Notes under the pieces: generated by a model
What the model was told of the DNA's origin: nothing
What the model saw: the letters and a program-made list of their open reading frames with translations, nothing else
Databases searched by the model: none
Part shown: one piece after another, positions 1,542-15,791 of the stretch
How the letters are laid out: each line of letters starts with the position of its first letter
How positions within the stretch are numbered: position 1 is the first letter of the stretch
Made by a program: the position numbers and the translations under genes
DNA from: Fulvivirga kasyanovii
Lineage (GTDB): Bacteria > Bacteroidota > Bacteroidia > Cytophagales > Cyclobacteriaceae
Direction of reading: 5' to 3'
Assembly: GCF_009711405.1 (NCBI RefSeq)
Contig: NZ_SMLW01000654.1
Location: forward strand, 1 to 36,819
Length of the DNA: 36,819 bases

Positions 1542-2099
1542 ATGTCCCCAATCTATAAGGGTAAATTGACTGAAAGCGAGCTTATTGCTTTACTGAAGCA
1601 GAAAGATAAAGCGGCATTGGGGTATCTCTATGATAATTATTCAGCAGCACTTTTTGGTGTAATCCTGCGCATTTTGCAAGACAAGAAAGTAGCCGAAGAA
1701 GTACTTCAGGATGCTTTCATGAAGGTATGGGACAAGATTGACACGTATGATGATAAAAAGGGCAGACTGTTTACCTGGATGCTGAACCTGTGCAGGAACC
1801 TGGCCATTGACAAACTCCGCTCGAAAGAAATAAAGAAGGTCGGTAAAACTGATGATATAGAAGAAAACGTATATCATGTAGAAAAAGATTATCTTGTTCA
1901 GCAGAGTGTGGACGGTATAGGTGTAAAGGAGCTTTTAGTCAGGTTGCGTGATGAGGAGAGGTTAATACTTGAGCTGATTTATTTTAAAGGCTATACGCAA
2001 TCAGAGGTCTCGGAAAGTCAGGGTATACCTTTAGGAACCGTAAAAACCAGGTTAAGGATGGCCTTGATTAATTTAAGAAAGGAGCTAGGGGTAGAGTGA
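1542..2099 (+). CDS. ECF-family RNA polymerase sigma factor
   Basis: 185 residues with the two-domain layout of extracytoplasmic-function sigma factors. Region 2 spans about residues 25-95 (the LYDNYSAALFG start, the EEVLQDAFMKVW core-binding/-10 helix, and a W-x-x-NLCRN-x-AID-x-LR end). Region 4 is about 125-183, with the helix-turn-helix GYTQSEVSESQGIPLGTVKTR. It is followed by, and overlaps through GTGA, the gene for an RskA-type anti-sigma factor, the usual arrangement for SigK/RskA-like pairs. It would recruit RNA polymerase to a small regulon when the membrane partner releases it. Neither the inducing signal nor the target promoters can be read from the sequence; the nearest downstream candidate is the lipoprotein gene at 3315. 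Confidence 0.93.
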   Translation: MSPIYKGKLTESELIALLKQKDKAALGYLYDNYSAALFGVILRILQDKKVAEEVLQDAFMKVWDKIDTYDDKKGRLFTWMLNLCRNLAIDKLRSKEIKKVGKTDDIEENVYHVEKDYLVQQSVDGIGVKELLVRLRDEERLILELIYFKGYTQSEVSESQGIPLGTVKTRLRMALINLRKELGVE

Positions 2100-2902
2100 A
2101 CATTCAGGAATATATATCATCAGGAATATTAGAGGCATATGTGCTTGGAGAGCTCCCCAGGGAAGAAGCTCTTGAAGTGGAAAAAATGGCTTTGGAGCAC
2201 CACGAGGTTAGGGAGGAAATTACCCGTATTGAAATTACACTTGAGAGTGTGGCCTTTGAAACGGCAGTGAAGCCGGCAGCAGATCTTAAAGACAAGATCA
2301 TGCAACAGGTGGATAGCAGTCAACAGCAGGCCGGAGCAAACGTAGTGTCGATGCCGATTTCCAACAAACCCAATTACTGGAAATATGCCATGGCAGCCTC
2401 AGTTTCTATAGCTCTGGTTACTACAATTTTAGCTTTTAACTTCTGGAGCAAGTGGAAAAGCACGGAAGTTGAACTGAATAATTTAATAGCTCAAAATGAG
2501 CGCATCGCCCGGGACTACAATACTGTCAACAATAAGCTTGAAGACATTGAGCATGAGTTCAGCATTTTAAGTGATGCCTCCTATCGTAAAGTAGTTTTGC
2601 AAGGTACAGAAAATGCCCCCCAGGCACTGGCAAACATTTATTGGAATCCAGCATCGGAAGAAGTCTACCTCAATATACAAAACCTGAAAGAGCTTACCCA
2701 GGAACAACAGTACCAGTTGTGGGCAATAATTGATGGAACCCCCGTAGACGCAGGGGTTTTTGACAGTGGCCAGAGCGGTCTTTTAAAAATGAAAAACATT
2801 GCACGAGCCTCCGCCTTTGCCGTTACCGTAGAGCCCAGAGGTGGTAGTGAAAACCCTACTTTGGATACCATGCAGGTAATGGGTGCCGTGGGTGAGTCCT
2901 GA
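2096..2902 (+). CDS. RskA-type membrane anti-sigma factor
   Basis: 268 residues, starting at a GTG that overlaps the sigma-factor stop (GTGA, 4 bp), so the two are translationally coupled. Residues 1-60 form a helical anti-sigma domain with the YVLGELPREEALEVE pattern of RskA-like proteins. The Cys residues of zinc anti-sigma domains are absent. A single membrane span lies at about 97-115, followed by a predicted coiled coil (about 119-158) and a C-terminal RskA domain (about 160-268), recognisable by QYQLWAIIDG, DAGVFD and FAVTVEPRGG. The topology places the N-terminus in the cytoplasm, holding the sigma factor, and the sensing part in the periplasm. Release probably requires regulated proteolysis, as in the family; no protease gene for this lies next to it. 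Confidence 0.9.
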   Translation: MNIQEYISSGILEAYVLGELPREEALEVEKMALEHHEVREEITRIEITLESVAFETAVKPAADLKDKIMQQVDSSQQQAGANVVSMPISNKPNYWKYAMAASVSIALVTTILAFNFWSKWKSTEVELNNLIAQNERIARDYNTVNNKLEDIEHEFSILSDASYRKVVLQGTENAPQALANIYWNPASEEVYLNIQNLKELTQEQQYQLWAIIDGTPVDAGVFDSGQSGLLKMKNIARASAFAVTVEPRGGSENPTLDTMQVMGAVGES

Positions 2903-7355: not shown

Positions 7356-10300
7356 ATGAATAAGCATATTTACTTACTCTCTACGGTATTTTTTTGTCTG
7401 ATAGCAGCAGTGGCCGTGGCTCAGGGAGATGAAGCCCTGGATAAAGCCTATGCAAGGGCTAATGAAAAACTTGAAAGTGGTGACTTTCGAAGTGCCATAC
7501 TCGATTATTCACAACTGATCAACTCTAAGTTTGGCAATGATGAAGTGTATGTTAAAAGGGGTATAGCCTATTATCAGACCAAGGATTATGATAAAGCTGC
7601 TTCTGACTTTGATGATGCCGTTAAAGCCCGGGTTGATAGCCCTGAATTGTATGGGTACCGCGGACTCACCAAATATGAGCAAAAGGATTATCAGGGTGCA
7701 GCCAGTGAACTGGAAAAGGCAGTTAACATGGGCTTTAGAAAGCCCGAAGGCCTGTTCAATTTAGGCAATGCCAAGTTCAGGCTGGATAGTTATCAGGATG
7801 CCATAAAATACTACGACATGGCTGAGCAGGCCGGTTATAAAGATGCCACACTGCTTAATAACAGGGGTAAAGCTAAGTTTACACTAAAAAATTATGATGC
7901 GGCCGTTCAGGATTACAACAAAGCTTTGGCTGCAGATAGCAAGTATGACAAGGCTTTGGAAAACCGTGCAGAAGCTTATTTTGAATTAAAGAAGTGGAAA
8001 GAAGCTGCTGACGACTATGATGCCCTCATAAAATCAGGTAAAGTAACCGATGAAAATTTTGCCAGAAGAGGGATAGCCCTATACCAGTTGAAAAACTATG
8101 ATGAGGCTGCCAAGGATATAGAAAGTGCCATTCAGAGAGGCAGCAAAATACCTGAACTCACCTATTACCTGGGCAATATCTATTTTGACAAAAAAGACTA
8201 TAAAAAAGCCGCCCTTTATTATGAGCAGGCTCAAAGAGCCAACGCGGAGGCCAAAGACCTTAATGCAAAGCTTGGGCAGGCCTATTTTCTTAGCGATAAC
8301 TATGCGGCTGCTGAAACTACCTTTACCAATGCCATTGACAAAGGGGACAACGATCCGTCAAATTACCTGTATCGCGGCTTGGCAAGGTATGAATTGAAAA
8401 ATGATAACGGTGCATACCAGGATCTGAAGCAAGCAACAGATAAAGGACAAAAGAATTACAAGGCCTTCTTCTATCTTGGTAATTTGCAGTTTAAGCAAGA
8501 AGAGTATCACCTGGCAGAAGCCAGCTACGACAAGGCCTTAGCCCTTGAGGCCACTGACCCTGTGGCTTTCAACAATCGCGGAAAATCAAAATTTAACCTG
8601 GATAAGCATGCCGAAGCACTTAAAGATTACAATCAGGCTCTTTCCCTAAAAGCGGACTATGATAAAGCTCTTGAGAACAGGGCGGAAGCATATTTCAAAC
8701 TTGAAAAGTGGCAGGAGGCTGTAACTGACTATAATGCATTGGTCGAAGCTGGTAAACTTACAGATGAGAATTTTGCCAGGAGAGGAATAGCACTTTATAA
8801 GCAGAACAAGTACGATGAAGCCATTAAGGACCTGGAGAGTGCAGTGCAAAGAGGAAGTAAAATTCAGGAGTTGACCTTCTATCTGGGTAATGCTTGGTTT
8901 GCCAAAGAAGATTATAAAAAAGCTGCACTGTATTATGAGCAGGCCCAGCGGGCAGGTGTAACCGCAGCAGATCTTAGTACTAACCTTGGTAAGTCATATT
9001 TCTATAATAAAAATTATGCAGCGGCAGAAACTACACTGTCAGATGCTATAAGCAAAGGCAGTGCAGATGCCAACAGCTATTTGTACAGAGGGTTGGCCCG
9101 GTATGAATTAAAAAATGATGAAGGTGCTCTGTCAGATTTACAGCAGGCGGTATCCAAAGGAGTGAAAGATTATAATGCCTATCACTACCTGGGCAATTTG
9201 CAGTTCAAAAAAGAAGAATACGCCAATGCCATTGCCAGCTACGACAGAGCCATCGCTCTGGATGCATCTGATGCCGTGGTGTTCAATAACAGAGGAAAGG
9301 CCAAACTTAATCTTCAAAAGTACAGTGAGGCTATTGCTGATTTTGACAAAGCACTGGCCTTGCAGGGCGACTACAGCAAAGCCCTTGAAAACCGTGCTGA
9401 GGCAAAGTTTGCAGCCAAAGACTGGCCAGGAACTATTGCCGATTATGAAGCCATCAAAAAATCAGGAAGTTCAGATCCCGTCATTTATGAAAGAATAGGT
9501 GTCGCCCGCTTCAATACAGGTGATTTTCAGGGAGCAGTTTCAGACCTAAAGTCTGCTATTCAAAGAGGTGCTACAGGGGATGATCTCAATCTAAAGCTGG
9601 GTATGGCACTTTACAAGACCGGAGGAAACAAGGAAGCTTATACCTATTTACAAAAAGCAGAACAGGCCGGACAGGCTACACCCCAGGTATATGAGATGCT
9701 GGGTGTTTCGGCTTATGAAAACAAGAGCTTTGGCAAAGCCGAGGAGTATATCACCAAAGCCCTTGACGGAGGAGTTAAAAATAATGACCTGTACAAATAC
9801 CGTGGAGCGGCCAGGTACTCCACCAGCAATGTTGATGGTGCCTTTGAAGACTTAAAAAAAGCAGAATCTTTAGGTGTTGCGGATTATGAAACTTTTAAAT
9901 CCTTAGGAGATATTTATTATTCCCGCAATGAGTTTGAGAATGCCATAGCGGCATATAATAAGGCCATTGCACAGAAAGCGGATGATCCCGTTGTATTGAA
10001 TAACCGGGGTAAGGCAAAACTCCTGCTCAAAAATTACCAGGGTGCCGTTGAGGATTTTGACAAAGCCATAGCCTTAAAGTCTGATTATGGAAAAGCACTG
10101 CTCAACCGGGGTACTGCCAGATTTGAACTTAAGAATTATTCCGGAGCAATTTCAGACCTTGAGAAAGCAAAAGAGGCATCAGGCCAAAGCAAAGAAGTAG
10201 TCAAAATGCTGGGACTTGCTTATTATGAAACCGGAAATAAGCAGGAAGCTCAAAAGTATCTTGATAAGGCCATTCAGGAGGGAGCCAAAGATGCTCAAGT

Positions 10301-12266
10301 ATATGTGTATAGTGGTTTGCTGAGCTATGACCAAAGTGATTATAAGAAAGCCTCCGGCTATCTGGACAAAGCGGAAGAGCTTGGAGAAAAATCGCCTGAA
10401 ATATATGAGAAAAGAGGTCTGGCCAAATACAACCTGAAAAACTATCAGGGAGCGGTAGACGATCTTACAAAGGCTGAGAAGGCAGGGGTGGCCAATGCAG
10501 ATTTGCATGCAAAAGTGGGTATAGCCCAATATGAGCTTAAGAATTATGCAGAGGCCGCAGGTAATTTGCAAAAAGCTGTGGCCAAAGGCTCAAAAGATAA
10601 GGAAGTGTATTACAACCTCGGTAATGCGCAGTTCAGGCTTGAACAATATGACCAGGCCATTAAGAGCTATGATCAGGCTATAACTTTGGGGGCTGATGAC
10701 GAATTGGTTTATAACAACAGAGGTAAAGCCAAAATGCTGACCAACAAACTGTCGGAGGCTATTAGTGACTTTGATAAATCGCTACAGGTTAAGCCCGGAT
10801 ATAATGTAGCCTTACTCAACAGAGGTACGGCCAAGTACCTTTCTGAAGACTACAAAGGAGCCATTGCCGATCTTAACAAAATTATTGAGGCCAATCAGGG
10901 AGGTAAGGAAGAATACCTTTATCTGGGTGTATCCAGGTTCCAGACCAAAGACTACGAGGGTGCCCTGACGGCGCTTGAAAAAGCACGCTCTTTGGGTGTA
11001 GATGATAAGTTGCTTTATTATGGGTTAGGAAACGCCTTGTACTACAAAGGTGATTTTGAAAAAGCTCTGCCCAATCTTGAAAAAGCTATCCAGATGGGGG
11101 CAGCGGATGTTCAGACCTATGCCAACAAAGGAGCAGCAGAATACAAACTGGAGAAATATCAGGCCGCAGCCAGTGACCTTAAAAAGGCGGTTGAATTGGG
11201 GGCTACGGATGCAGAAGTTTTCCATAATCTTGGACATGCCCTTTATGAAACCGGAGATTTTGAGGGGTCTATTTCAACCTTGAATAAGGCCATCAGTGCT
11301 AAAAGTGACTACGGATCAGCATACTTTCATCGTGGCAATGCCAAGTTCAGGTTGAAAAACTATGAAAGTGCCATTAAGGATTATGACGAAGCCATAGCCA
11401 AAGGAGTTAAAAATCCTATCATTTATAACAACAAGGGTAAGGCGTATCAATTGGCGGATAAACTGGACGAGGCTATTGAAAGTTATACCAGGGCTATTGA
11501 GTCTGACGGCAACTACGGAAGGGCGTACGAGAATAGAGGAAAGGCTTATTTTATGATGGAGAAGTATGAAGAGGCAGCCAAAGACCTTTCCAAATATGAA
11601 AGGCTCGAAGAGAAGCCCGATGGAGAGACAATCTTTTACCTGGCAGAGTCATACTATCACATGGAAGAATACGTAAGGGCACTGTCCTACTTTGACAAAA
11701 CCATAGAATCAGGCAATAAGAGTGGAGAGACTTACCAGCACCGGGCAAGGACCCTTATGGAAACCCAAGACTATGAAGGTGCTATTGCTGATTTGCAAAA
11801 TGCAATAAATGCAGGGAAGAAAGATGCTTCTGTCTATATGGATCGTGCACGGGCCAACCTGTATTTGGGTAATATACGAGCTGCTTCCAATGACCTTGAC
11901 GATGTTATTGCAAAAGATCCGGGTAACGCCGATGCTTACTACAACCGTGCGTATCTGAAAGAGGAGGCTGAGGATTACGAAGCGGCAATAACTGATTATA
12001 AAAAAGTCGTAGAACTTACACCGAATGACGATGCCGCACATTTTCATCTTGCAAATGCTACAGTATCCTCCGGCAACGTGGGAGGTGCCCTGGAATCTAT
12101 CAATAAAGCCATTGAATTGAATGGCAAAGATGCCTCCTACCATAAAGTAAAAGGTAATATTTTATATCAGCTTGAACGTGAAGGAGACGCGTGTGAGAGC
12201 TGGAGAAAGGCGGTAGAGCTTGGTGATAAAAAAGCATCTTATTTTATCAGCCAGTATTGCGATTAA
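7356..12266 (+). CDS. Giant exported TPR protein with 7-TPR super-repeat
   Basis: 1636 residues: a signal peptide (1-22, ending AVA), then from residue 29 to 1626 an array that divides into 47 units of 34 residues, with a 10-residue tail ending ISQYCD. TPR signature residues (LG/RG at 7-8, A/Y, then DY.EAI.DY.KA) recur in each unit. A higher-order period of 238 residues is visible: the segment beginning KALENRAEAYF recurs at residues 199, 437, 675, 913 (KALLNRGTARF), 1151 and 1389, and the preceding unit is NNRGKAK-like in nearly every copy. The first five TPRs correspond to positions 3-7 of the super-unit. TPRs are protein-binding scaffolds; the export signal puts this one in the periplasm. 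The last full unit has ACESWRKAVELG, as in many Bacteroidota TPR proteins. The partner is unknown. The gene is monocistronic, with a strong terminator downstream. Confidence 0.93.
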   Translation: MNKHIYLLSTVFFCLIAAVAVAQGDEALDKAYARANEKLESGDFRSAILDYSQLINSKFGNDEVYVKRGIAYYQTKDYDKAASDFDDAVKARVDSPELYGYRGLTKYEQKDYQGAASELEKAVNMGFRKPEGLFNLGNAKFRLDSYQDAIKYYDMAEQAGYKDATLLNNRGKAKFTLKNYDAAVQDYNKALAADSKYDKALENRAEAYFELKKWKEAADDYDALIKSGKVTDENFARRGIALYQLKNYDEAAKDIESAIQRGSKIPELTYYLGNIYFDKKDYKKAALYYEQAQRANAEAKDLNAKLGQAYFLSDNYAAAETTFTNAIDKGDNDPSNYLYRGLARYELKNDNGAYQDLKQATDKGQKNYKAFFYLGNLQFKQEEYHLAEASYDKALALEATDPVAFNNRGKSKFNLDKHAEALKDYNQALSLKADYDKALENRAEAYFKLEKWQEAVTDYNALVEAGKLTDENFARRGIALYKQNKYDEAIKDLESAVQRGSKIQELTFYLGNAWFAKEDYKKAALYYEQAQRAGVTAADLSTNLGKSYFYNKNYAAAETTLSDAISKGSADANSYLYRGLARYELKNDEGALSDLQQAVSKGVKDYNAYHYLGNLQFKKEEYANAIASYDRAIALDASDAVVFNNRGKAKLNLQKYSEAIADFDKALALQGDYSKALENRAEAKFAAKDWPGTIADYEAIKKSGSSDPVIYERIGVARFNTGDFQGAVSDLKSAIQRGATGDDLNLKLGMALYKTGGNKEAYTYLQKAEQAGQATPQVYEMLGVSAYENKSFGKAEEYITKALDGGVKNNDLYKYRGAARYSTSNVDGAFEDLKKAESLGVADYETFKSLGDIYYSRNEFENAIAAYNKAIAQKADDPVVLNNRGKAKLLLKNYQGAVEDFDKAIALKSDYGKALLNRGTARFELKNYSGAISDLEKAKEASGQSKEVVKMLGLAYYETGNKQEAQKYLDKAIQEGAKDAQVYVYSGLLSYDQSDYKKASGYLDKAEELGEKSPEIYEKRGLAKYNLKNYQGAVDDLTKAEKAGVANADLHAKVGIAQYELKNYAEAAGNLQKAVAKGSKDKEVYYNLGNAQFRLEQYDQAIKSYDQAITLGADDELVYNNRGKAKMLTNKLSEAISDFDKSLQVKPGYNVALLNRGTAKYLSEDYKGAIADLNKIIEANQGGKEEYLYLGVSRFQTKDYEGALTALEKARSLGVDDKLLYYGLGNALYYKGDFEKALPNLEKAIQMGAADVQTYANKGAAEYKLEKYQAAASDLKKAVELGATDAEVFHNLGHALYETGDFEGSISTLNKAISAKSDYGSAYFHRGNAKFRLKNYESAIKDYDEAIAKGVKNPIIYNNKGKAYQLADKLDEAIESYTRAIESDGNYGRAYENRGKAYFMMEKYEEAAKDLSKYERLEEKPDGETIFYLAESYYHMEEYVRALSYFDKTIESGNKSGETYQHRARTLMETQDYEGAIADLQNAINAGKKDASVYMDRARANLYLGNIRAASNDLDDVIAKDPGNADAYYNRAYLKEEAEDYEAAITDYKKVVELTPNDDAAHFHLANATVSSGNVGGALESINKAIELNGKDASYHKVKGNILYQLEREGDACESWRKAVELGDKKASYFISQYCD
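7950..12233 (+). repeat. Six tandem 714-bp repeats inside the TPR gene
   Basis: In-frame tandem repeat with units starting at 7950, 8664, 9378, 10092, 10806 and 11520, each exactly 714 bp (7 x 34 codons). Anchor codons encode K/V/R-A-L/Y-E/L-N-R at each start. By eye, units 1 and 2 are closest (94 of 136 residues identical over their first four TPRs, hand count); later units are more divergent. This indicates growth by stepwise tandem duplication, the most recent involving the first two units. Confidence 0.9.
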
Positions 12267-12291
12267 GCGGCTGGAATAGCTAATTTTAAGT

Positions 12292-12323
12292 AATGCCCGG
12301 TAGCTCTCAGTTTACCGGGCATT
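12292..12323 (+). terminator. Rho-independent terminator after the TPR gene
   Basis: Perfect 11-bp arms AATGCCCGGTA (12292-12302) and TACCGGGCATT (12313-12323), 10-nt loop, followed by TTATTTA. It begins 26 bases after the TPR stop codon. Confidence 0.9.
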
Positions 12324-12389
12324 TTATTTAAAAATTCTGTTACCTATGCTTTCCCTTACGTATATATCCATACCAGCTAAAGCTCTGTC

Positions 12390-12869
12390 ATGATCAAACT
12401 TTTTATTACAATTTTCTCCATTTTTAACATCGGGACGCCGGAAACCATATCAGGCAAAGTAATCCGTGTAATTGACGGTAACACCATCGAAATACTGGAT
12501 TCGGAGAAAGAGGTGGTCAAAATCATGCTCAGCGAAGTAGACTGCCCGGAGCTGGGGCAGGAGTTTTCGGAAGAGGCTAAAAAGCTTACCGAAAAACTTG
12601 TGCTTAAGAAAAGGGTTGTGGTTGAACTGAAAGGCAAAGACCGTTGGGGAAATAAGCTGGGGCAGGTCATGCTAAATAATGGAAAGCTGCTCCATCATGA
12701 GTTACTGCAAAACGGCCTGGCCTGGGCCAAAGAAGAAGATAACGAAGCCCTGGTAAATATGCAGGCTACTGCCAAAGCCAGTAAAAGTGGCTTATGGATA
12801 AGTGAAGACCCCACACCTCCCTGGATCTACAGGAGACAACAAACCATGATGGCTCCCAAGGGCCGTTAA
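12390..12869 (+). CDS. SNase-like (thermonuclease-fold) protein, catalytic residues altered
   Basis: 159 residues. A short hydrophobic N-terminus (about 2-14, possible signal or anchor) leads into a staphylococcal-nuclease-like OB domain (about 20-140): ISGKVIRVIDGNTIEI, then VDCPELGQEF, DRWGNKLG, and LLQNGLAW...GLW. Compared with S. aureus nuclease, D19, D40 and E43 have equivalents (D29, D51, E54). Catalytic R35 aligns with M46, Ca-ligand D21 with N31, and R87 with N88 (followed by K89). On established mechanism, loss of both arginines should strongly reduce phosphodiester cleavage, so this may be a nucleic-acid-binding or otherwise repurposed SNase domain. The alignment was made by eye; a one- or two-residue shift could bring K44 or K89 into play. 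The gene stands alone. Confidence 0.8.
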   Translation: MIKLFITIFSIFNIGTPETISGKVIRVIDGNTIEILDSEKEVVKIMLSEVDCPELGQEFSEEAKKLTEKLVLKKRVVVELKGKDRWGNKLGQVMLNNGKLLHHELLQNGLAWAKEEDNEALVNMQATAKASKSGLWISEDPTPPWIYRRQQTMMAPKGR

Positions 12870-12891
12870 CCATTTATTTGAACCTATCTTG

Positions 12892-12899
12892 TAGCTTTG
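12892..12899 (+). promoter_or_regulatory. Candidate Bacteroidota -7 box (TAGCTTTG)
   Basis: Exact match to the TAnnTTTG -7 consensus, 55 bases upstream of the lysine-rich protein gene at 12954. I cannot pick out a clear -33 TTTG at the expected distance, so this is only a candidate. Confidence 0.35.
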
Positions 12900-12953
12900 T
12901 GGTTTATTGTGGCTGTACACAATAAAAAACGCTATCTTCAGTTTTATAACTGA

Positions 12954-13364
12954 ATGAAGAAAAGAAAGTTAGTTATGAGATTCGTGTTAGTCATTCTGAT
13001 ATGCTTCCTGGGAGTTGCCTTTAATGCAAACGCTCAAAAAGCAAAAAAAACAAAAAAAAGTAAAGCAGAACAGGTCGATAATGCTTACGAACCCTTTGCC
13101 CCGGAGGAAGTAAAGGCCCCGGTTCAAAAAAGCAGCAAAAAGGGTAAGAAATCTTTTCGAAGCAAGTACAATAAAACACTTGAACAAACGAGGGAGGACT
13201 TTGCCAAGCGCATGGAGGCCAACGCTAAGAAGGAGCGAAAAATGCAGAGGCAAATGGAAAAGCCACAATATTCCGACCCCTCTTATTTTGGGCATAAAAA
13301 GAAACCCAAAAAAAGAAAGCCCGGCAAAAGGAAGTTTTGTAAAGAGTGTGGAATAGTTCACTAG
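12954..13364 (+). CDS. Small exported lysine-rich protein of unknown function
   Basis: 136 residues, no family recognised. A clear signal peptide (hydrophobic core about 8-22, cut after ANA near residue 27) is followed by a strongly basic, low-complexity chain with KKTKKSK, KKGKKSF and KKKPKKRKPGKRK clusters and a Pro/Glu-rich spacer. The C-terminus ends FCKECGIVH, a CxxC pair that could bind a metal or form a disulfide. The composition suggests an unstructured periplasmic or surface protein interacting with polyanions such as LPS, DNA or RNA. It stands alone between the SNase-like gene and deoC. Confidence 0.7.
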   Translation: MKKRKLVMRFVLVILICFLGVAFNANAQKAKKTKKSKAEQVDNAYEPFAPEEVKAPVQKSSKKGKKSFRSKYNKTLEQTREDFAKRMEANAKKERKMQRQMEKPQYSDPSYFGHKKKPKKRKPGKRKFCKECGIVH

Positions 13365-13412
13365 CACACCTCCTGCACATTCATTCCTGCTCATAAAAAA
13401 ATTGATCCATTG

Positions 13413-13431
13413 ACCCCGGAGTGTTCGGGGT
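13413..13431 (+). terminator. Possible weak terminator hairpin
   Basis: Six-bp arms ACCCCG (13413-13418) and CGGGGT (13426-13431) with a 7-nt loop, followed by TTAACAG. It lies between the lysine-rich protein gene and deoC. The T-tract is short, so termination would be weak. Confidence 0.4.
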
Positions 13432-13461
13432 TTAACAGTACTATTTCTTATCTTAGATTCA

Positions 13462-14115
13462 ATGAACAACCTCAACCGATTCATTGAACAAACCAACCTG
13501 AAGCCGACTTTTGTAGCCGGTGATGTGGATGTGCTTGTAAAACAAGCCGTTGATCATAATTTCCTGGGTATATGTGTTCCGCCATTCTGGGTAAAAAAAG
13601 CCAGCAGGGAGATTGGCGACAGGGATGTCCAACTTGTAACCGTTATCGGTTTTCCTTTAGGATATAACATGACAGAAACCAAGATCCAGGAGATCGATCT
13701 TGCCATTCGAGATGGTGCCGATGAGCTGGATATCGTGATGAACATATCTTCCTTCAAAACAGGACTACCCTGGACCAAGATAGAACTGGCCAAGTGTTGC
13801 AACCTTATCCATGACCACTATAAGCTGGTAAAAGTAATTATTGAAACGGCCTATTTGTCGTCAGAGGAAATAGAAACAGCATGCAAGCTATGTGCTGATG
13901 CAGGAGTTGATTTTGTGAAAACCTCAACCGGTTTTGCGGGAGCAGGGGCTAAAGTGGAGCACATTGAGCTGATGCGTAAGGTATTACCATCCAATGTGGG
14001 AATAAAGGCATCAGGGGGTATTAAGACATATCAGCAGGCCGTGGAGCTTATTATGGCAGGTGCTGATAGAATAGGTACATCTTCCGGAGTAGAAATTTTA
14101 GCCGAAGCGAAATAA
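13462..14115 (+). CDS. deoC: Deoxyribose-phosphate aldolase
   Basis: 217 residues, class I aldolase with a TIM barrel. It cleaves 2-deoxy-D-ribose 5-phosphate to glyceraldehyde 3-phosphate and acetaldehyde in deoxynucleoside catabolism. Seen: the Schiff-base lysine K153 in FVKTSTGF, the catalytic lysine K182 in GIKASGG, the general acid/base aspartate D90 in ELDIVMN, GFPLGYN, and the closing GADRIGTSSG phosphate-binding loop. Length is typical for the short bacterial form. Acylphosphatase follows after 2 bases on the same strand, so the two are probably co-transcribed. No other deo gene is nearby. Confidence 0.96.
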   Translation: MNNLNRFIEQTNLKPTFVAGDVDVLVKQAVDHNFLGICVPPFWVKKASREIGDRDVQLVTVIGFPLGYNMTETKIQEIDLAIRDGADELDIVMNISSFKTGLPWTKIELAKCCNLIHDHYKLVKVIIETAYLSSEEIETACKLCADAGVDFVKTSTGFAGAGAKVEHIELMRKVLPSNVGIKASGGIKTYQQAVELIMAGADRIGTSSGVEILAEAK

Positions 14116-14117
14116 CT

Positions 14118-14390
14118 ATGGAGCATTTTAACATCAGGGTTTTGGGCAAAGTGCAGGGCGTATTTTACAGGGCCAACACGCGCAAAAAAGCTTATGATCT
14201 GGGCATAACAGGATATGTTCGCAATGAACCCGATGGCAGCGTGTATATCGAGGCAGAGGGCAGGTTGGATAAGCTCAATGAATTTGTTTCCTGGTGCCGT
14301 ACCGGTCCTGATAGGGCAAAGGTTGATGAAGTGCAGGTTAAATCATCCGGGGAACTGAAAAACTTTACCCGATTCGAAATAGAAAGCTAA
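14118..14390 (+). CDS. acyP: Acylphosphatase
   Basis: 90 residues, the full ferredoxin-like acylphosphatase fold. It hydrolyses carboxyl-phosphate bonds such as acetyl phosphate or 1,3-bisphosphoglycerate. Seen: the signature GKVQGVFYR with catalytic R18, the GYVRNEPDGSV segment with catalytic N36, and a typical C-terminal strand. It begins 2 bases after the deoC stop, suggesting translational coupling, although the functional link to deoC is not obvious. Confidence 0.95.
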   Translation: MEHFNIRVLGKVQGVFYRANTRKKAYDLGITGYVRNEPDGSVYIEAEGRLDKLNEFVSWCRTGPDRAKVDEVQVKSSGELKNFTRFEIES

Positions 14391-14418
14391 AAATATAAGA
14401 ATCTGAAAACCTCGGTCT

Positions 14419-14922
14419 TTAAGCAATTTTCATTTTAACAATGCCCTTATACTTATAGATTTTGAGCTCAAAATGCTGGTGGATGAAAGCCTTCATCCGG
14501 CTCTCAGCAAGCTCGGCCTTACGGCCTTCGGGGTAAAAAACGGTGAGTTCAAGTACTGCCTTTAAAAAGTTGGGGCGCAGGCAGAAATCTACCAGCCACT
14601 CTTCGTAGGTGGCTACCCAGTCTACAGTATACTTGTCGTAATGATCCTTGCCATCAAAAAGAAATTCCAACTGGTTGTTGCCATGCTTGTATCTGTAAAC
14701 ACCCGCAAGGTTGCGATAGAACTCTACCAAACGATCGGTGTACTCAGTGTTGTGTGCTTTAATTTGCTTTACAGTGTCATCTTCCAGCCCCAGCGGATTA
14801 AACTGATCAAGATAAAATTTCTTGGCAAAATCTATCAGATACACGATTAGTCGCTCCTCTTGATCGAGTTGCGCCTGCTCAAGTATATAGTTTTTGTCCA
14901 GTGGGAAATATTTCTGAATCAT
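14419..14922 (-). CDS. Conserved-looking hypothetical cytoplasmic protein
   Basis: 167 residues, no domain recognised. There is no signal peptide or membrane segment. The sequence is rich in aromatic and acidic residues (FYLDQFNPLGLEDD, YDKYTVDWVATYEEWLVDF) and looks like a compact helical protein with a basic C-terminus (IYKYKGIVKMKIA). Codon use and composition match the neighbours. It converges on the deoC-acyP pair with a 28-bp gap that has no clear terminator, and is divergent from the metallo-beta-lactamase gene across a 152-bp gap. I cannot assign a function. Confidence 0.75.
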   Translation of the reverse strand: MIQKYFPLDKNYILEQAQLDQEERLIVYLIDFAKKFYLDQFNPLGLEDDTVKQIKAHNTEYTDRLVEFYRNLAGVYRYKHGNNQLEFLFDGKDHYDKYTVDWVATYEEWLVDFCLRPNFLKAVLELTVFYPEGRKAELAESRMKAFIHQHFELKIYKYKGIVKMKIA

Positions 14923-15074
14923 CGTTTAAATATTTGACTCGCCAAATATAATAGTTTCTTTTCAAGTATGAAGATTAAAAAGGCAGAAATGATGGTGTAA
15001 TTGACGCAATAATATTACATCGCATTTTGAGGAAAAAGACATACAGCGTAACTTGACGGCTTAATTTAACCCCT

Positions 15075-15791
15075 ATGAGAATATTACTTGCCACTCTGCT
15101 TCTGACCTTGTTTACTATCAATGGTTATGCTCAGAATGAACCTTATCAAATAGATGTCACCAAACTGGACAGTGGGCTTTACCTCTACCATTCTTACGCA
15201 GAATACAAGGGTAATAAAGTCTCTGCCAACGGCATTGTGATTGAGGCAGGTGATAGTGTGGTCGTGATTGATTCGCCCTGGGACAATGAGCAAACCATCC
15301 AGCTTCTTGACTGGGTAGAGGCCGAAATTGTCAAACCGGTAGCGGCTGTGGTAATCACCCACGCACATAACGACAGGATCGGTGGGATTTCAGTGTTGCA
15401 TGAAAGGAATATTAAGACTGTGAGTAGTCAGCTTACAAAAGTTTATGCCCTGAAACGGGGCTTTGAGGCCCCAAAGAAAATATTTGAAAAGGAAACTACT
15501 TTGAATGTAGGGGAAGTGACTGTTAATGTATTTTACCCGGGAGCCGGGCATACTGTAGACAACACTGTGGTTTACATATCTCCTTATGAAGTCCTTTACG
15601 GAGGCTGTTTCATCAAAAGCAGCGGGGCCAAAGACTTGGGCAACATCGAAGATGCCGATCTGGATTCCTGGGGAGGAAGCATCAAAAATATGCAAAGGCG
15701 CTTTCCTGCGCCAAAAATGGTTATACCCGGGCATGGAAATTATACCCCCGGAGCCATTGAAAACACCCTTAAGCTACTCGGATATCAATAG
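15075..15791 (+). CDS. Subclass B1-like metallo-beta-lactamase
   Basis: 238 residues with a signal peptide (about 1-19, ending GYA), so exported to the periplasm. The alpha-beta/beta-alpha fold carries a complete B1 di-zinc site: HAHND gives H96, H98 and D100, H159 is in GAGHTVDN, C178 is in YGGCFIKS, and H220 is in PGHG. K181, three residues after the Cys, is the residue that holds the beta-lactam carboxylate in B1 enzymes. The downstream block GAKDLGNIEDADL is also typical of B1 enzymes. The Cys ligand separates it from glyoxalase II-type hydrolases, which have Asp there. It likely hydrolyses beta-lactams, possibly carbapenems; the spectrum is not predictable here. It is a lone chromosomal gene with no transposon or integron beside it, which suggests an intrinsic gene. 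Confidence 0.88.
   Translation: MRILLATLLLTLFTINGYAQNEPYQIDVTKLDSGLYLYHSYAEYKGNKVSANGIVIEAGDSVVVIDSPWDNEQTIQLLDWVEAEIVKPVAAVVITHAHNDRIGGISVLHERNIKTVSSQLTKVYALKRGFEAPKKIFEKETTLNVGEVTVNVFYPGAGHTVDNTVVYISPYEVLYGGCFIKSSGAKDLGNIEDADLDSWGGSIKNMQRRFPAPKMVIPGHGNYTPGAIENTLKLLGYQ

Follow-up and report, generated by a model that had tools for sequence, protein, structure and literature searches.

The giant TPR protein encoded at 7356..12266 on the plus strand of the window, by which we mean the whole 36,819-nucleotide stretch of Fulvivirga DNA analysed here, is organised on a period of 714 bp, or seven repeats of 34 aa, and this period is concentrated in the putative ligand groove. Judging from sequence, we give a probability of roughly one half to the reading that the protein is an exported TPR superhelix that serves as a scaffold for binding peptides multivalently, each seven-TPR super-unit contributing one clamp-like site. 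The gene is a single ORF of 1636 aa, which segmentation of the translation divides into 47 repeats of 34 aa, beginning at residue 29, and a short C-terminal tail; Pfam assigns the repeats to the helix-turn-helix TPR families (TPR_2, E=1.6e-151; TPR_1, E=1.5e-149). Residues 1-23, ending in AVAQ (7356..7424, plus strand), look signal-like when the translation is read by eye, as the initial annotation had proposed, and the protein is probably exported, the signal and its cleavage site being putative. At the other end, a C-terminal cap (12132..12266, plus strand) carries the pair C1613/C1635. The same tail, Cys x20-26 Cys at the C-terminal end, occurs in 94/94 homologs, and a disulfide between its cysteines may close the cap.

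In the literature that was searched, no paper on the giant Fulvivirga TPR protein was found, and PMC8944806 gave no value for the turn length of TPR superhelices. Pfam returned no glycosyltransferase domain at E<=0.001, which places the protein outside the OGT family, and no Trypsin_2 hit, which sets it apart from Trypsin_2-TPR fusions. The protein scores above the curated whole-protein cut-offs of NCBIfam PrsT (TIGR02917; 431.7 vs 312.2) and MamA (NF040959; 409.9 vs 200), in our reading through the adding up of many TPR matches; no PEP-CTERM/XrtA or magnetosome families were found among the other window proteins scanned (ten, then five of these again with others). Elsewhere in the window, two tandem 22-bp copies (13456-13498) overlap the start of a DeoC-like gene at 13462.

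Anchor segments 714 bp apart mark the period within the gene: KALENR at 7950, 8664 and 9378, KALLNR at 10092, VALLNR at 10806 and RAYENR at 11520. An NNRGKAK-like repeat, described initially as preceding nearly every anchor, directly precedes all six (7848, 8562, 9276, 9990, 10704 and 11418). The initial annotation had called the 714-bp repeat exact, which holds for the spacing and fails for the sequence, units sharing 27-57% protein and 40-59% DNA identity. Neighbouring 714-bp units are 46-59% identical in DNA, the longest identical run at lag 714 is 14 bp, and the array went unreported by Tandem Repeats Finder, whose longest period is 500. Just past the last KALENR-like anchor (11520), the step from repeat 41 to the next is 35, with one extra residue. 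Autocorrelation of the protein at lag 238, the check that had been put forward for a super-unit of seven TPRs, gave 37.1% identity and the top BLOSUM62 score among lags 1-1299, compared with 29.7% at lag 476, 26.1% at 34 and 25.4% at 714; the remaining multiples of 34 gave 18.9-24.1% up to lag 544 and 18.0-24.1% for those listed up to 986. When repeat order was shuffled, k=7 stood at z=11.8 and 0/1000 shuffles matched its value at any lag from 1 to 14. The period of 714 bp (7 x 34 aa) is thus confirmed as real in the window protein, and the super-unit of seven is upheld.

A TPR superhelix makes one turn per about seven to eight repeats, and with seven so near the turn, long TPR arrays in general might show k=7; the peak might also be chance. 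We consider this generic or chance origin very improbable, both from the shuffles of repeat order and from a control set of 20 further TPR arrays, 10-23 repeats long (the related L134 excluded), none of which had 7 as its best lag. That control is small and mostly of short arrays, 15/20 being long enough for lag 7, three having at least 20 repeats and several having weak TPR scores. In one of the three longest arrays, 7 was the second-best lag (z 2.3).

The period is shared by most of the relatives. Of the named records, F. marina (86%) and F. imtechensis (75%) come closest to the genome of the window. A homolog at E<=1e-60 was found in 25/58 relatives and in 100/245 genomes of the family, the window's own genome being included in both counts; in a phylum sample of 296 genomes, 17 matched at E<=1e-30; four of these matches fall below E=1e-200, all in the family of the window. 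The set used here comprises 94 proteins from 33 genera, after eight loci were dropped: L022 (a fragment of an interrupted copy), L026 (a partial copy of the L090 gene), L040 and L098 (incomplete frames), L045 and L089 (without a full frame), L134 and L135. Loci L029-L037 are additional partial pieces, from genes counted elsewhere or unused, and several genomes with matches were covered incompletely, among them G058, G097, G212, G231, G233 and G234. In G005, a single-contig genome from the genus of the window, the gene (L144/L022) is broken by stop codons. Among the 94 homologs, the best of 14 lags was k=7 in 75 and k=14 in five; z at k=7 exceeded 3 in 66, and fewer than 1% of shuffles matched the k=7 value at any lag in 60. 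At the level of genera, k=7 was best in at least half of the members in 26/33, and the k=7 signal was not significant in nine (g13, g47, g51, g70, g84, g92, g97, g98 and g100). Peaks at k=6 and 13 were discarded as an artefact of a segmentation that missed 31-33-aa repeats. Cyclic phase profiles trained on five Fulvivirga proteins scored seven phases above six and eight in most rows, with eight phases at least equal to seven in about a dozen divergent rows; outside Fulvivirga, a profile without phases often equalled or exceeded the phased ones, and these profiles were not relied on.

Relatives differ in length mostly by steps of about seven repeats. With counting accurate to about one repeat, the totals (number of proteins in brackets) were 26 (3), 27 (5), 30 (6), 32 (2), 33 (20), 34 (7), 38 (1), 39 (12), 40 (32) and 47 (6), so that 61/94 fall exactly on the series 26/33/40/47, 26 are off by one, one is off by two and the remaining six make up the 30-repeat class. 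Measured between the presumed signal cut and the last Cys, the 50 inner-clade proteins span 1611-1614 (6), 1369-1380 (21), 1133-1140 (17) or 1035-1039 (6) residues, classes that step by about 238 residues apart from one clade, within a single genus, that is three repeats short. Members of this 30-repeat clade (L079, L080, L083, L084, L087 and L091) have lost three repeats near the N-terminus, with a phase string running AB then FG in four of the six, and form the only clear out-of-register class among the 94. Parsimony on a tree built quickly from the last 480 aa, with totals lumped within one or two, required at least 15 length-class changes, eight of them in the inner clade and one of these leading to the 30-repeat clade; these counts are rough because the tree has long branches and open forks, and they do not make each length step a single event.

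In many outer-clade relatives (34/94 homologs), about 180-260 aa not read as TPR precede the array, a stretch that the inner clade lacks; a six-repeat step suggested for the outer clade by lengths alone vanished once this N-terminal sequence was recognised. Pfam detected Trypsin_2 in four of 10 such N-termini (L028, L086, L106 and L134; two above cut-off, of which one is the cross-family relative) and did not find it in those of L112, L104, L119, L093, L124 and L127. By eye the catalytic residues look degraded, and the Trypsin_2 domains of the outer relatives are probably degenerate. The cross-family relative, L134 of G043 (another family of the same order), is a protein of 2253 aa on the minus strand, up to 7356 in the coordinates of its own locus, with Trypsin_2 and about 59 TPRs; it shows k=7 at z=9.5 and a C-terminal cap similar to that of the window protein. 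Its repeats 3-9 and 10-16 (numbered from 0) are very similar, a Pro/Ala-rich insert lies near residues 980-1010, and beside it (8608-15474, minus strand) is an ORF of 2288 aa with, by eye, an apparent T9SS-type C-terminal sorting domain.

Whole blocks of seven repeats have been duplicated within these arrays. In the window protein, residues 199-436 (copy 1; 7950..8663, plus strand) and 437-674 (copy 2; 8664..9377, plus strand) are 66.8% identical in protein and 64.4% in DNA, and the 40-repeat congeners L014 and L015 have a single block where the window has both copies. The position of the duplicated block varies by lineage: in Fulvivirga it involves repeats 5-11 and 12-18 (numbered from 0, as are those that follow; 78.2% in L011, 66.8% in the window), in L095 repeats 11-17 and 18-24 (74.4%; L082, L049 and L025, siblings of L095, are 33-repeat proteins), and in genera g46, g55 and g105 repeats 4-10 and 11-17 (61.8-72.3%). 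The 40-repeat L014 is 71-76% identical to its 47-repeat sisters L012 and L013, whose own two copies share 54-60% with each other; that L014 is closer to the sisters than their copies are mutually points to loss of seven repeats. Between copies, third codon positions agree at 0.39-0.49 and first and second positions at 0.72-0.86. At sites with the same residue, the same codon is used at 0.43-0.54, against 0.40-0.49 expected from the codon use of the gene (seven genes); in L001, L095 and L011, whose copies share 66.8-78.2% protein identity, the values are 0.43-0.46 against 0.40-0.41. Synonymous codon choice between copies is thus near random, which indicates that the duplicated blocks are old and have been kept by selection on the protein, and which rules out recent duplication or ongoing gene conversion in the seven genes.

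These duplications allow an explanation by history and recombination bias, in which an ancient tandem duplication of seven TPRs set the period and the number seven itself is without function. Each repeat would be maintained by purifying selection on separate grounds, and since the stretches most alike are those at a distance of 714 bp, unequal recombination between them would add or remove repeats in sevens. Exact DNA runs of at least 11 bp are more frequent at lag 714 (0.50-1.35 per kb) than at other lags from 1 to 13 repeats (<=0.40) in four gene sets, and the longest exact runs, up to 29 bp, fall at lag 714 in three of the four. The duplicated blocks are internal to the array, as PMC1553488 describes to be common for domain repeats; loss of three repeats has been tolerated once, in the 30-repeat clade, and the cross-family relative with its 59 or so repeats lies outside the 26/33/40/47 series. 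Against these points, synonymous codon choice is near random between the copies of the seven genes tested, which argues that no homogenisation of their DNA is under way. We regard recombination bias as a serious rival to selection for seven, albeit on the doubtful side, and two further observations, on the groove and on the triads below, are not predicted by it alone.

The first concerns where in the repeat the period sits. Positions 2, 5, 9, 12, 13, 33 and 34 of the TPR are, according to PMC1261162, the hypervariable concave positions that contact ligand. In 49 proteins from 13 genera, identity at this concave set was 0.12-0.15 at 12 lags and rose to 0.314 at lag 7 and 0.271 at lag 14, while the other positions rose from 0.24-0.28 to 0.357 and 0.306, respectively. 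Permutation over the 34 positions, which are mutually non-independent, gave p=0.005 for the concave set against the rest, and 0.002 once ortholog and other-lag identity were regressed out; for all 63 proteins of 20 genera, the values were 0.005 and 0.008. The lag-7 excess of the concave positions lies above that of the rest in 25/28 genera, the groove positions being without a lag-7 signal in g70, g84 and g98. The period is therefore concentrated in the putative ligand groove, and the periodic binding face suggested in the initial annotation agrees with these sequence comparisons. Across genera, the groove is more conserved than the whole repeat in phases 1 and 2 (0.545 vs 0.510 and 0.512 vs 0.491) and less conserved in the remaining five phases. 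The largest lag-7 excess of any position is at position 24, a packing position, so the period is not purely a groove effect. Recombination bias does not by itself predict a period concentrated in the groove.

The second concerns a set of three successive repeats that recurs once per super-unit. In the window protein, six such triads have a clamp-like pattern and are candidate groove sites, all on the plus strand: residues 131-232 (7746..8051), 369-470 (8460..8765), 607-708 (9174..9479), 845-946 (9888..10193), 1083-1184 (10602..10907) and 1321-1422 (11316..11621). The first reads F5 N9 / N5 N6 K9 Y34 / K2 N6 and the fourth K5 D9 / N5 N6 K9 Y34 / K2 N6; the sixth has R at position 2. A relaxed rule (N/D9, N6, K/R2 and N/R6) describes five of the six, the fifth triad failing through V at position 2 of its third repeat; the strict form is N9, N6 and K/R2. 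With phases counted from the C-terminus, the relaxed rule holds for 166/233 phase-2 triads and 0/1529 triads in other phases in the 50 inner-clade proteins, a count that is descriptive and no independent test, because the rule was noticed in the data before counting. The strict form holds for 86/233 and 0/1529. In the outer clade (31 proteins), the relaxed rule holds for 50/141 against 8/937 and the strict form for 43/141 against 15/937. The residues concerned are strongly kept in 43 inner-clade proteins: N5 (90%), N6 (93%), K9 (91%) and Y34 (87%) in phase 1; N9 (59%, or D in 35%), F12 (89%) and Y24 (95%) in phase 2; and K2 (64%) and N6 (87%) in phase 0. Conservation of one triad per unit is likewise not something that recombination bias by itself predicts.

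The canonical five-residue carboxylate clamp (K5,N9 / N6 / K2,R6, in the TPR position numbers that we take to be those of the Tah1 clamp residues) was found in 0/2840 triads in 81 proteins, which leaves the family outside that class. Most inner-clade phase 2-1-0 triads keep three of the five clamp positions; most have a residue other than Lys at position 5 and N in place of R6, which makes the triad clamp-like rather than a clamp. The Tah1 clamp residues themselves were taken from PMC13153604 and PMC4058522. Triads 131-232 and 845-946 match RPAP3, SPAG1, STI1, TOM70 and PP5 at E<=1e-4, and the control triads 233-334 and 743-844 match none of these five at that threshold. Among PDB sequences, designed TPRs score highest with triad 131-232, followed by co-chaperone TPRs as the top natural ones; site triads are more consensus-like than controls, and also match OGT, and match designed TPRs better still. 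The N6 of the fourth triad aligns with the clamp anchor Asn172 of RPAP3, which, according to PMC4058522, holds the C-terminal Asp of the Hsp90 peptide; Asn 6 is also described as frequent in TPRs generally (PMC1261162).

An AlphaFold2 model of residues 29-742, covering three super-units and built from a three-sequence input (pLDDT 92.9, pTM 0.57, 42 helices), confidently predicts a continuous all-TPR solenoid of helix pairs. The top row of a VIA-align search with the model was 1w3b, the OGT TPR domain (Z 28.8, rmsd 10.3 A over 388), and fits to that domain overall gave 8.1-10.3 A over 342-388 residues; designed consensus TPR superhelices fitted at 4.4, 4.7 and 6.1 A over 256-271 residues, and in Foldseek one conformation of SPINDLY fitted at 6.4 A over 414 columns, its other entries at 17-18 A. 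The Foldseek top 20 (CTR9, SKI3, IFT-A) were set aside as long TPR proteins at 18.7-44.1 A rmsd with no specific relation. The initial annotation had proposed that a super-unit of seven matches one turn of the superhelix, which would bring equivalent surfaces into line along one side of a rod, perhaps for a polymer or a row of identical partners in the periplasm. Such a register would fit the turn of about seven to eight TPRs, the continuous solenoid of the model and the array lengths that step by about seven repeats; yet the superhelix fits above, to consensus TPR, OGT and SPINDLY, speak neither for nor against that turn length, and the periodic residues are strongest at inner-groove positions, not on the outer surface. 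We think it unlikely. A periodic groove is possible without seven repeats per turn, so the groove reading is independent of turn length, and a periodic groove, in which each block of seven repeats offers one clamp-like site, describes the mechanism better than a striped rod does.

As a multivalent scaffold, the protein would be an exported, probably periplasmic, TPR superhelix whose functional unit is seven TPRs (238 aa), each unit presenting, across three consecutive repeats, one clamp-like site in the groove. The site would consist of N9 or D9 in the first repeat, N5-N6-K9 and Y34 in the second, and K2 and N6 in the third, with Asn 6 gripping the backbone or the C-terminal carboxylate of an extended peptide, after the model of the Hsp90-peptide clamp and the asparagine ladder of OGT, and Lys side chains adding charge. 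The window protein carries six such triads, and its relatives would have roughly three, four or five, as arrays grow and shrink by whole super-units. What we infer from these patterns is peptide binding and its ligand, where the protein is located, how many sites each relative has, and selection for one site per unit.

The setting of the gene offers a possible link to regulation. The window encodes an ECF sigma factor (1542..2099, plus strand), a homolog of which lies upstream of the TPR gene in several genera, and an anti-sigma factor (RskA_C; 2096..2902, plus strand), here 4.5 kb from the TPR gene with other genes between. Across 29 genera, with flanks of varied length, an anti-sigma gene (with an ECF sigma gene) is upstream on the same strand in seven, a lipoamide dehydrogenase gene upstream in 11 and an SNase gene downstream in six; where the anti-sigma gene is present (ten loci), the gap between its end and the TPR gene downstream is 93-526 bp in nine loci and 3310 bp in the tenth. 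The TPR gene may possibly be regulated by the ECF sigma/anti-sigma pair.

A family-wide higher-order period that is strongest at ligand positions points to the location, and possibly the number, of binding sites, and suggests that this number changes in whole blocks. A giant TPR protein without an assigned function thereby becomes testable with a fragment of 102 or 238 residues, and the natural series of about 3, 4, 5 and 6 sites lends itself to studying the evolution of valency and of superhelical register.

Several known systems share parts of this architecture. OGT and SPINDLY are likewise long TPR superhelices, and OGT has an Asn-lined channel (PMC5967971), whereas in the window family Asn 6 is dominant in only two of seven phases, the array has a seven-repeat period, and there is no glycosyltransferase domain. 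Carboxylate-clamp co-chaperones (RPAP3/Tah1, Hop/STI1, PP5 and TOM70) have the triad in the same register and share N/D9, N6 and K2, but theirs is a three-TPR domain, while the window family has one site per seven repeats and mostly lacks K5 and R6. The designed CTPR8 and CTPR16 have the same unbroken 34-aa repeats and are the best-scoring solved sequences for the window protein; their repeats are near-identical, whereas the window protein is natural and has a period of seven. Nebulin, from muscle, binds actin. Its super-repeats are described in PMC1553488 as growing mainly by units of seven small domains, with an autocorrelation peak at lag 7, and the expansion by seven-domain blocks seen here is the same; nebulin is eukaryotic and of another fold, the window protein is made of bacterial TPR helices, and the likeness is one of architecture, not homology. 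By this analogy, and only tentatively, since we rate it as rather doubtful, the protein might be a TPR ruler in the periplasm, the bacterial counterpart of nebulin, with a binding capacity that comes in quanta of one seven-TPR super-unit each; it would possibly stand under ECF sigma/anti-sigma control, and its partner would be an extended or repeated chain meeting a clamp-like site every 238 residues. If so, evolution would tune how many partners are bound (about three to six) through the gain or loss of whole super-units.
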